Below are positions 1 through 4,606 of a DNA stretch of 64,000 nt, one piece after another. Each line of letters begins with the position of its first letter. Position 1 is the first letter of the stretch. Source of the stretch: Arthrobacter jinronghuae (GTDB taxonomy: Bacteria; Actinomycetota; Actinomycetes; Actinomycetales; Micrococcaceae); NCBI RefSeq assembly GCF_025244825.1, contig NZ_CP104263.1, forward strand, positions 2,418,001-2,482,000, in the 5' to 3' direction. The position numbers and the translations under genes were made by a program. The notes beneath the pieces are model-generated. The model made no database searches and had not been told where the DNA came from. It saw nothing but the letters and a program-made list of their open reading frames with translations.

Positions 1-51
1 ATTTGCCTTCGAGGCCATCAGCGAAGGGCTGATTGGCGATCCCTTACTCAT
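1..51 (-). CDS. ilvB: Acetolactate synthase large subunit, N-terminal 17 codons (partial)
   Basis: Only the first 17 codons lie in the window; the gene runs off the left edge. They read MSKGSPISPSLMASKAN, which resembles the short N-terminal extension I associate with Arthrobacter acetolactate synthase large subunits. AAAGGAAG sits about 7 nt before the ATG as ribosome binding site. The assignment rests mainly on context: a Val/Ile/Leu-rich leader peptide and an intrinsic terminator lie immediately upstream on the same strand, and ilvD is the next gene. The enzyme would make acetolactate and acetohydroxybutyrate, the first common step of Val/Leu/Ile synthesis. The catalytic region is not visible, so identity is strong but indirect. 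Confidence 0.8.
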   Translation of the reverse strand, partial: MSKGSPISPSLMASKAN

Positions 52-165
52 CGGAACTTCCTTTGCGGATGCTAATCCATGGTCAATGCGGTCATGCGAC
101 GGCCGTCCCGGGTTGTGCCCGGTACGGCTTCTGTGTTCAGCGAAGCCAAAACTGGCGATGCCAAT

Positions 166-202
166 AAAAAAACCCCTCGTGCCTGTTGGCTCCGTAGGGG
201 TT
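166..202 (-). terminator. Intrinsic terminator of the ilvB leader (attenuator)
   Basis: On the minus strand AACCCCT pairs with AGGGGTT across an 18-nt loop and is followed directly by seven T residues. It lies between the leader-peptide stop and the ilvB start, so it must act inside the ilvB leader. A second possible stem, GCGCGTG in the last leader codons pairing with CACGCGC at 204-210, abuts the terminator 5' arm. That is the kind of competing fold expected in transcription attenuation. I could not identify a clear antiterminator by eye. Confidence 0.85.
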
Positions 203-232
203 CGCGCGTGACGTCTTAGACAAGTCGGGCTG

Positions 233-274
233 TTACGCCACGCGCTTGATAAGGACGACGGGTACGATCTGCAT
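233..274 (-). CDS. ilvB leader peptide, 13 aa
   Basis: A 13-codon open frame encodes MQIVPVVLIKRVA followed by TAA. Seven of thirteen residues are Val (4), Ile (2) or Leu (1), the products of the downstream pathway. That is the signature of a ribosome-mediated attenuation leader. No Shine-Dalgarno sequence precedes it; instead a -10-like AAGACT lies exactly 7 nt upstream of the ATG, so the mRNA probably starts at the A of the ATG. Stalling at scarce charged Val/Ile/Leu tRNA would alter folding ahead of the terminator 31 nt downstream. An ilvB attenuator is known in Corynebacterium glutamicum; its presence here is my inference from sequence. Confidence 0.85.
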   Translation of the reverse strand: MQIVPVVLIKRVA

Positions 275-281
275 ACCGTTC

Positions 282-310
282 AGTCTTGCGTTCCCCTACG
301 GGGGTGTCAA
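282..310 (-). promoter_or_regulatory. Promoter of the ilvB leader
   Basis: A perfect -35 TTGACA (305-310) is separated by 17 nt from AAGACT (282-287), read on the minus strand. The leader-peptide ATG begins 7 nt beyond the -10. The spacer holds a GC-rich palindrome, CCCCCGTAGGGG. Spacing and the consensus -35 make this one of the best promoter matches in the window, though the first base of the -10 departs from the usual T. Confidence 0.75.
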
Positions 311-315
311 TCATA

Positions 316-338
316 TGAGACGTCCGTCTCACTATCTG
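316..338 (-). promoter_or_regulatory. Candidate operator upstream of the ilvB promoter
   Basis: A perfect inverted repeat, TGAGACG-TC-CGTCTCA (316-331), lies 5 bp upstream of the -35. Overlapping it on the minus strand is CAGATAGTGAGA (327-338). This matches, at 11 of 12 positions, the site I recall for the IclR-type regulator LtbR of Corynebacterium glutamicum (CAyATAGTGrGA), which controls leucine and tryptophan genes. The position just upstream of the -35 would suit an activator or a modulating repressor. No binding data are available here; the motif comparison is from memory. Confidence 0.5.
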
Positions 339-347
339 GACCTAGCG

Positions 348-389
348 TGCCCCAAGCGGAAGGCACTCCGATGCCTTCCGCTTGGGGCA
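348..389 (-). terminator. Strong hairpin at the 3' end of ilvD
   Basis: Two perfectly complementary 18-nt arms (348-365 and 372-389) flank a 6-nt loop, starting 5 bp beyond the ilvD stop codon. There is no U-tract, so it fits the tail-less hairpins common at actinobacterial gene ends. It separates ilvD transcripts from the ilvB leader promoter. Confidence 0.75.
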
Positions 390-394
390 GGGTT

Positions 395-2098
395 TCAACC
401 GCAGTAGGCCCCCGTGGACGCGGAGTTCACCATCTTGGCGTACTTGGCCAGGACACCCTTGGTGAACTTCCCGGGCAGCGGCTGCCAGCCGACCTTGCGG
501 GCTTCGAGCTCGTCCGGGTCCACCAGCAGGTCGAAGCTGCGGGCAGCAATGTCCACCCGGATCCGGTCGCCGTCCTTCACGAAGGCGATGGGGCCGCCGT
601 CGACCGCTTCGGGTGCCACATGGCCGATGCACAGGCCCGTGGTGCCGCCGGAGAAGCGGCCGTCGGTCAGCAGCAGGACATCCTTGCCCAGGCCCGCACC
701 CTTGATGGCGCCGGTGATGGCGAGCATTTCGCGCATGCCCGGTCCGCCCTTGGGGCCCTCGTAGCGGATGACGACGACGTCGCCGGCGTGGATTTCTCCG
801 GCATTCAAGGCGTCAAGGGCACCCTGTTCACGCTCGAAGACGCGTGCGGTGCCTTCGAACACGTCGGCGTCGAACCCTGCGCTCTTGACCACGGCGCCTT
901 CCGGAGCCATGGACCCCTTCAGGACGGTGATGCCGCCGGTCTTGTGGATGGGGTTGTCCATGGCTCGCAGGACTTTCCCGTCCGGATCCGGCGGGTTTAT
1001 GGCCGCGAGGTTCTCCGCGACGGTCTTGCCCGTGACCGTGAGGCAGTCGCCGTGGATCAGGCCGGCGTCGAGCAGTGCCTTCATGATCACGGGCACGCCG
1101 CCGATCTTGTCGACGTCGAACATGACGTACCGGCCGAACGGCTTCAGGTCGCCCAGGTGCGGAATGGTGTCGCCGATCCGGTTGAAGTCCTCGAGGGTGA
1201 GGTCCACTTCCGCTTCGCGGGCGATGGCCAGCAGGTGCAGCACGGCGTTGGTCGAGCCGCCGAAGGCCATGGTGACGGCGATGGCGTTTTCGAAGGCTTT
1301 CTTGGTCATGATGTCGCGGGCGGTGATGCCCTTGCGCAGCAGGTTGACCACTGCTTCGCCGGACTTGCGGGCAAACTCGTCGCGGCGCCGGTCCGCGGAG
1401 GGCGGCGCGGCCGAACCGGGAAGGGACATGCCCAGTGCCTCGCCGATGCAGGCCATGGTGTTGGCGGTGTACATCCCGCCGCAGGCACCTTCACCGGGAC
1501 AGATGGCCCGTTCAATGGAGTCGAGGTCCTTCAGGCTCATCTTGCCTGCGGCGCAGGCACCCACTGCTTCGAAGGCGTCAATCAGGGTGACTTCCCGCTC
1601 GCTGCCGTCCTCCATCTTGGCGAAGCCGGGCATGATCGAGCCGGCGTAGAGGAAGACGCTGGAAAGGTCCAGCCGTGCTGCGGCCATCAGCATGCCGGGC
1701 AGGGACTTGTCGCAGCCGGCAAGCAGCACGGAGCCGTCCAGGCGTTCGGCCATCATCACCGTTTCCACCGAGTCCGCTATGACCTCGCGGGACACCAGGG
1801 AGAAGTGCATGCCTTCGTGGCCCATGGAAATACCGTCCGAGACGGAAATGGTGCCGAACTGCATGGGAAAGCCGCCGCCCGCATGGATGCCTTCCTTGGC
1901 GCCGGTGGCGAGGCGGTTCAGGGAAAGGTTGCAGGGAGTGATCTCGTTCCAGGAACTGGCGACGCCGATCTGCGGCTTGGCGAAGTCGTCGTCGCCCATG
2001 CCTATGGCACGGAACATACCGCGGGCAGGTGCCGCGTGTATGCCGTCCGTAACGACTCGGCTGCGGGGTTTGATGTCCGGTGTGTTGTCCACGCTCAT
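395..2098 (-). CDS. ilvD: Dihydroxy-acid dehydratase
   Basis: This 567-aa protein belongs to the IlvD/Edd family. It dehydrates 2,3-dihydroxy-isovalerate and -methylvalerate to the keto acids that precede Val/Leu and Ile, in the cytoplasm. The expected Fe-S ligand cysteines are visible at C56 (TPCNLSL), C129 (AGCDKSLPG) and C206 ([13 protein letters not shown]), and length is normal for the short bacterial form. The ATG is preceded by a -10-like TACGAT ending 6 nt upstream and no Shine-Dalgarno sequence, so translation is probably leaderless. It is read toward ilvB but separated from it by a strong hairpin and a new promoter, so the two are co-located rather than co-transcribed. Confidence 0.96.
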
Positions 2099-4276: not shown

Positions 4277-4352
4277 GCACCTCTAGCTCAATTGGCAGAG
4301 CAATTGACTCTTAATCAATGGGTTCCGGGTTCAAGTCCCGGGGGGTGCACCA
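4277..4352 (+). tRNA. tRNA-Lys (anticodon CTT), copy 1
   Basis: A complete 76-nt cloverleaf with encoded CCA. The acceptor stem is GCACCTC with GGGGTGC, the anticodon loop is CTCTTAA giving CTT (reads AAG), and the T-loop is GGTTCAAGTCC. It is identical in sequence to the second copy 254 bp downstream. Confidence 0.97.
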
Positions 4353-4530: not shown

Positions 4531-4606
4531 GCACCTCTAGCTCAATTGGCAGAGCAATTGACTCTTAATCAATGGGTTCCGGGTTCAAGTCCCGGGGGGT
4601 GCACCA
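4531..4606 (+). tRNA. tRNA-Lys (anticodon CTT), copy 2
   Basis: Same 76-nt sequence as copy 1, with encoded CCA, CTT anticodon and the same 70-bp distance to its upstream promoter block. AAG is the dominant lysine codon in this GC-rich genome, so a doubled gene dose is plausible. Confidence 0.97.

Follow-up and report, generated by a model that had tools for sequence, protein, structure and literature searches.

A predicted leaderless attenuator of the ilvBNC operon in Arthrobacter jinronghuae, with a leader-codon hairpin flush on its terminator

In Escherichia coli, the ivbL and ilvL leaders combine a branched-chain amino acid leader peptide (32 codons) with a terminator ahead of acetohydroxy acid synthase genes. 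These leaders are longer than the one described here and use ordinary initiation, and their antiterminators work by strand exchange.

Among Actinomycetes, ilvB leaders have been reported in Corynebacterium, Mycobacterium and Streptomyces (the literature covered includes PMC5784534, PMC3890552 and PMC4833913), and attenuation has been published for C. glutamicum and M. tuberculosis. The C. glutamicum ilvB leader is described as leaderless, with transcription starting one nucleotide upstream of the start codon, and the C. diphtheriae leader is likewise described as leaderless. The C. glutamicum ilvBNC attenuator and the ilvB-II motif (PMC11857589, PMC10272879) share with the present locus a branched-chain amino acid leader, a three-hairpin logic and a terminator before ilvB. 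As far as the published descriptions by which we know them go, they differ in that the reported Corynebacterium antiterminator overlaps the terminator, whereas hairpins of the A. jinronghuae type stand side by side with no more than one base in common. For M. tuberculosis ilvB1NC, compared here by its text alone, control codons are also described, together with a ribosome stall that frees an antiterminator otherwise covered by the ribosome at the stop codon, and replacement of these codons abolishes induction (PMC13236596). Changes of the control codons also abolish regulation in C. glutamicum, where partial removal of the terminator hairpin is reported to have little effect (PMC11857589). For S. 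coelicolor, replacement of the possible control codons is reported to be without effect in a paper that calls the mode of regulation of ilvB leaders not clear (PMC1262725).

The closest described relative is the S. lividans ilvBHC leader IlvL, MRTRILVLGKRVG, a 13-codon leader ending in Lys-Arg-Val-Gly that was found to be leaderless by RNA-seq and is followed by a terminator with a U-tract before ilvB (PMC8079986). The A. jinronghuae leader belongs to another organism and encodes another peptide, and its transcription start is inferred, whereas that of IlvL was mapped. In the literature covered, where older work is represented through later papers, we found neither a paper on an Arthrobacter ilvB leader peptide or attenuator nor a description of a conserved leader-codon hairpin flush on a terminator.

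Locus, promoter and leader peptide

The stretch of A. jinronghuae DNA that was analysed (the window) is 64,000 nt long, and the element lies at its left edge on the minus strand. The upstream gene is ilvD (2098-395, minus strand). Downstream, ilvB starts at window position 51, so that 51 nt of it (1..51, minus strand) fall within the window; the gene runs on beyond the edge and is followed by ilvN and ilvC (all names from NCBIfam). The best named match of IlvB is to Arthrobacter luteolus (90%). In the direction of transcription, ilvD is followed by a hairpin at about 389-348, a palindrome at 341-325, the promoter, the leader, a hairpin here called P1, the terminator and ilvB, and the attenuator thus stands directly upstream of ilvB. 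The long, near-perfect hairpin at 348-389 lies between ilvD and the ilvB promoter and has no U-tract; the stretch 400-340 that holds it is predicted to fold at -40.9 kcal/mol (z -6.5), and it may mark the end of the ilvD transcript.

The promoter consists of a -35 hexamer TTGACA (305..310, minus strand), a 17-nt spacer (304-288) and a -10 hexamer AAGACT (282..287, minus strand), separated by the 7 nt GAACGGT (281-275) from the leader ATG (274-272). The 13-codon leader ORF, MQIVPVVLIKRVA followed by the stop codon TAA (235-233), occupies 233..274 on the minus strand, with a putative transcription start at 274. This short frame carries a run of Ile, Leu and Val codons, namely Ile3, Val4, Val6, Val7, Leu8 and Ile9, with Pro5 among them (248..268, minus strand). 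The arrangement put forward by the sequence-only reading, TTGACA-N17-AAGACT, 7 nt, ATG, hairpin, T7 and ilvB, was thus confirmed in the details checked, all on the minus strand.

Related loci were collected as 80 named ilvB loci, 29 genomes of the genus, 158 of the family and 148 of the class. From the family set came 30 loci, of which 8 duplicated earlier entries, and 70 further upstream regions, and 69 regions of the class set were examined. Leaders were sought as short ORFs rich in Ile, Leu and Val, with a preference among candidates for a T-run and a C-terminal Arg; the Ile/Leu/Val-rich stretch is therefore a criterion of the scan itself. Candidates were found in 160 of the 201 ilvB upstream regions of the first three sets, including 29/29 of the genus, although some of the weakest among the 160 are probably false. 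The earlier proposal of a Val/Ile/Leu leader peptide and attenuator before ilvB is supported, and the check for absence from related genomes did not refute it. For promoter and Shine-Dalgarno (SD) counts, 145 leaders were retained after candidates with a T-run under 4 or a peptide over 23 had been dropped.

As the leader scan ignored the promoter, promoter geometry provides an independent test in the first three sets; in the class set, where start codons were ranked by promoter match, it does not count as evidence. Of 133 distinct leaders, 111 carry TTGAC 35-37 nt upstream of the start codon; elsewhere within 120 nt it was found only 10 times, and a -10 element of the form xAnnnT ended 6-7 nt upstream of the start in 111/114 (spacers of 16-19 nt allowed, 17 first). 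At a control position, 35 nt before the start of ilvB itself, TTGAC was present in 9/73 loci, and a consensus promoter scan gave no match. SD-like motifs preceded 12 of the 145 leaders, compared with 72 of 73 ilvB starts. The fixed distance between TTGAC and the start codon, together with the rarity of SD motifs, makes it very likely that the leader is leaderless, with transcription beginning at or next to its start codon, as had been suggested for this ATG. The further claim that translation of such a peptide from a leaderless mRNA is out of the ordinary does not hold for this class, since leaderless ilvB leaders have been published for C. glutamicum, C. diphtheriae and S. lividans. The Arthrobacter ilvB leader would join this known family of leaderless branched-chain amino acid attenuators as a new member.

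Just upstream of the -35 hexamer lies an operator-like imperfect palindrome, GTCCAGATAGTGAGACG (325..341, minus strand), and its exact sequence occurs nowhere else in the genome. With 2 mismatches allowed, the genome holds three matches, against seven for a reversed control pattern, so that the other two can be attributed to chance. Palindromes of the type GTCCANATANTGAGAC precede 101 of the 145 leaders, against 0 of 145 control windows that contain one (9/59 leaders in the class set), and in 96 of the 101 the right half begins 55-58 nt before the leader start. The left half resembles in sequence the motif published for NdgR of S. coelicolor, [GT]T[CT]CAC...GGAC (PMC4340878).

The P1 hairpin and the terminator

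A predicted intrinsic terminator lies between the leader and ilvB, with a stem-loop at 170..203 (minus strand; -18.7 kcal/mol) and a U7 tract at 166..172 (minus strand), 114 nt from ilvB. Directly before it, the end of the leader pairs with pre-terminator bases to form P1, a predicted helix of 11 bp (245-235 with 214-204). Its 5' arm (235..245, minus strand) comprises the Arg-Val-Ala codons and one base on either side, the third of the Lys codon and the first of the stop codon, and its 3' arm (204..214, minus strand) abuts the terminator stem. The sequence-only reading had noticed part of this pairing, GCGCGTG (245-239) with CACGCGC (210-204), and had taken it to suggest that terminator folding depends directly on where the ribosome stands. 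The pairing is confirmed and belongs to the full 11-bp helix, but the terminator stem takes no part in it: P1 is a separate, flush hairpin, so that the pairing by itself does not show a direct change of terminator folding. P1 and the terminator together (245-167) fold at -39.9 kcal/mol, compared with -22.9 +/- 3.2 for shuffled sequences (z -5.3, 0/200 as good). When the leader is included, the excess shrinks to z -2.8 for 274-167 (1/200 as good) and z -2.0 for 274-160 (8/200). In the predicted fold of the naked RNA, P1 and the terminator coexist, with P1 stacked directly on the terminator.

For comparison across relatives, leaders with a T-run of at least 5 were used (138 with a terminator, 116 unique), and U-run lengths were compared in 115 of these. 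A flush P1 was defined as a stem that joins the leader end to pre-terminator bases and stops no more than 4 nt from the first terminator G-C pair. Of 115 distinct leader RNAs, 79 have such a stem with 8 bp or more, compared with 4.4% of shuffles, and typical arms are GCGCGUGGC with GUCACGCGC. The 115 RNAs were reduced to 97 with P1 within 4 nt of the terminator, and to 79 by keeping one per peptide. An initial count of stems of at least 5 bp, present in 115/116, was dropped as evidence for P1, since 515 of 580 shuffled regions also have one; the case for P1 rests on the long flush stems and on covariation.

In 76 of the 97 sequences, P1 runs right up to the outermost pair that the terminator could form, and in 10 more the two share one base; among the 54 class-set sequences chosen by the same 4-nt limit, it is flush in 28 and shares one base in 15. 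What separates P1 from the first G-C pair is chiefly A or G, an A-tract able to pair with the U-tract. The S. lividans peptide MRTRILVLGKRVG occurs exactly in eight class-set genomes and MRTRILVLGQRVG in two, and in all ten the gap between P1 and the terminator is 0.

A P1 of 7 bp or more is also kept where the stop codon precedes the 5' arm (9 sequences of the order set and 8 of the class set), for example in leaders encoding MARILVLP, MSKTLLVVI and MRFGILVLH, in which the arm lies at or after the stop codon. This persistence argues that the arm is conserved as RNA and not as peptide, the Lys-Arg-Val-Ala end of the leader being a reading of the arm; the C-terminal codons of a leader peptide would thus owe their conservation, as judged by comparison, to an RNA structure.

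Covariation gave different answers at two scales. Among 23 Micrococcaceae sequences, the family in which it had been suggested to look for covariation of leader and stem, no two-sided changes in P1 were found; the helix is 99% paired and hardly varies. Class-wide, the inner P1 pairs co-vary: they score 4.03 of 5 paired, where none of 2000 shuffles exceeded 3.33 (139 non-redundant sequences, kinship ignored), and the changes include U-A with C-G, and G-C with C-G and A-U. In this wide test the arms were anchored on the outer four bases and the inner pairs were tested (anchoring failed for 9 of 173 sequences, which were omitted); pairs 8 and 10 alone were not above shuffles. Arm anchoring replaced a consensus fold of 53 whole leaders aligned with MAFFT, which recovered only a 4-bp helix because the variable parts were misaligned.

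Ribosome position, the predicted switch and its alternatives

The position of the ribosome relative to P1 was modelled on the assumption that its footprint extends 15 nt, counted from where the P-site codon begins. A ribosome whose A site holds the first control codon leaves the P1 5' arm uncovered on average; at the last control codon it covers about half of the arm, and at the stop codon 90% or more in 93/97 sequences. For RNA ending before the terminator (97 sequences), the modelled probability of P1 was 0.50 without a ribosome, 0.94 with a stall at the first control codon and 0.00 at the stop codon. The mean of 0.19 at the last control codon is a counterpoint to a switch based on P1, as a stall there would cover the hairpin. 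Without a ribosome, P1 fell below 0.5 in 50 of the 97 sequences, where other folds win. It was at least 0.5 in the other 47, including that of A. jinronghuae, so that on this model its untranslated RNA would also form P1 and be read through. In three sequences, P1 was modelled at zero even in the stalled state.

These features are best explained by a ribosome-controlled transcription attenuator of ilvBNC in which P1 is the antiterminator, a reading to which we assign a probability of roughly 85%. If transcription starts at the leader ATG, the ribosome would load on the very 5' end of the RNA. With ample Ile, Leu and Val it would reach the stop codon and cover the P1 5' arm; P1 would then be blocked, the terminator would fold and transcription would end before ilvB. 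When Val or Ile is scarce, the ribosome would stall on the first control codons, leaving P1 free to form, and the polymerase would read through. If regulation runs in the usual direction, P1 must be the structure that goes with read-through. As far as tested, P1 is separate from the terminator stem and does not swap strands with it, which leaves a physical route. During termination the base of the terminator hairpin is expected to lie at the RNA exit channel of the polymerase, and a second helix joined without a linker would have to fit there too; P1 may therefore act by crowding the exit channel, not by strand exchange. The wider proposal is of an Actinomycetes-wide attenuator without strand exchange, in which a ribosome-gated leader-codon hairpin flush on the terminator (86/97 and 43/54) crowds the exit channel while the two hairpins remain compatible in naked RNA. 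This we offer tentatively, and as somewhat doubtful. If the flush hairpin is indeed the antiterminator, an intrinsic terminator would be switched without competing base pairs, and such a switch could explain the printed remark on the unclear regulation of ilvB leaders (PMC1262725).

A classical attenuator would require an antiterminator sharing bases with a terminator arm, and such pairing was sought by comparing duplex energies with those of shuffled sequences. On average, upstream transcript segments showed no excess complementarity to the terminator arms in 79 and 42 sequences: the mean z was +0.45 for the 5' arm plus loop and about +0.12 for the 3' arm in the 79, and, for the 42 class-set sequences, +0.37 and +0.05. 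Seven E. coli attenuators with terminators cut likewise had a mean 5'-arm z of -2.7 (thr -4.2, phe -4.8, his -3.7, ilvG -2.0, ivbL -1.6, leu -1.3, trp -1.0). Both terminator boundaries, the outermost pair and the first G-C pair, were run on both sets and gave -2.6 and -2.7 for E. coli and +0.38 and +0.45 for the relatives. P1 itself, as a positive control, scored z -3.5 in sequences that had been preselected for it. The test is not fully sensitive, as the E. coli trp, leu and ivbL attenuators score only -0.9 to -1.6 (ivbL -1.3 to -1.6, compared with -2.0 for ilvL), and 6-12 of the 79 relatives reach -0.85 on one arm. An antiterminator sharing bases with a terminator arm was thus not found in these sequences by a test in which three E. 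coli controls are weak. Pairing of the control codons with the P1 loop, in a hairpin that would cross P1, was above chance in 17-25% of sequences; here its signal is weak (z -0.94). It is also on record that the C. glutamicum model has its H2 overlapping H3 (PMC11857589), and an overlapping antiterminator missed by the test might use sequence upstream of the assumed start. The promoter spacer CCGTAGGGGAACGC (302-289) is complementary at almost every base to the terminator 5' arm GCGAACCCCTACGG (206-193), and such complementarity exceeds chance (z below -2, mononucleotide shuffles) in 22% of the 79 spacers, compared with 1-5% in three control windows. With dinucleotide shuffles, however, the effect is small (mean z -0.36), the G-run before the -10 hexamer may be a promoter feature, and the spacer would be absent from a leaderless RNA; a bypass for transcripts coming from upstream was considered. 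On balance, we regard a missed classical antiterminator as unlikely.

Similarly low is the chance we give to the opposite role of P1, in which it aids termination, as a pause hairpin or as a stacked support, until a stalled ribosome displaces it and read-through follows. The direct stacking of P1 on the terminator in the predicted fold and the coverage of about half of its 5' arm by stalls at the last control codon are in line with such a role, as are hairpin clusters, which have been proposed to favour termination, that is, more of it and not less (PMC8355165). The modelled footprints argue the other way: P1 stays wholly free when the ribosome stalls at the first control codon, and in 93/97 at least 90% of the arm is covered once the ribosome is at the stop codon, the opposite of what this role needs. 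Improbable, in our view, is a conserved leader with a constitutive terminator in which ilvBNC is controlled mainly by a repressor or activator of the IclR type, like NdgR, acting at the upstream palindrome. Such control would fit the operator-like site before 101/145 leaders, the reported binding of NdgR to ilvB in S. coelicolor (PMC4340878) and the codon replacement without effect in that species (PMC1262725), but it would give the control codons, the stop-codon geometry and the co-varying hairpin little reason to persist, and in C. glutamicum and M. tuberculosis regulation is lost when the codons are changed. Attenuation with P1 as antiterminator and control at the palindrome may also act together.

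Distribution among Actinomycetes

In the class set, a leader candidate was found in 59 of the 69 regions; 57 of these regions, with a terminator, were analysed and 12 lacked a leader or were dropped. Together with the Arthrobacter group, these many class lineages (57/69 class-set regions) would form one family of leaderless branched-chain amino acid attenuators.

The first scan gave no leader candidate in 41 of the 201 regions. A second scan recovered seven of them (L010, L026, L062, L068, L072, L146 and L180, with L026 and L146 doubtful), and in two others (L043 and L057) the sequence was too short for a leader scan. The 32 regions in which neither scan found a leader ORF include 15 that, by name, we take to be Microbacteriaceae and 10 from the own family of A. 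jinronghuae, which suggests loss of the leader or another mode of control. Regions without a leader in the two scans include L028, L032, L036, L040, L042, L047, L050, L074 and L080, as well as the runs L158-L162 and L169-L172.

A covariance model of P1 and the terminator, built from 23 sequences including that of A. jinronghuae, has a single match in the A. jinronghuae genome, at the ilvB leader. In 149 genomes of the order it matched in 59, once in 58 of them, and under stricter filters there was no match in the other 90. Nine matches were compared with ilvB coordinates, and all lie directly upstream of ilvB. A search with Rfam (4227 models, gathering score) found nothing in seven related loci, and at window positions 1-1500 it gave sub-threshold, chance-like matches only (E 1.9 or worse). 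Its only matches above the gathering score in the window were three tRNAs. Tandem tRNA-Lys(CTT) genes with equal Rfam scores lie at window positions 4277-4352 and 4531-4606.
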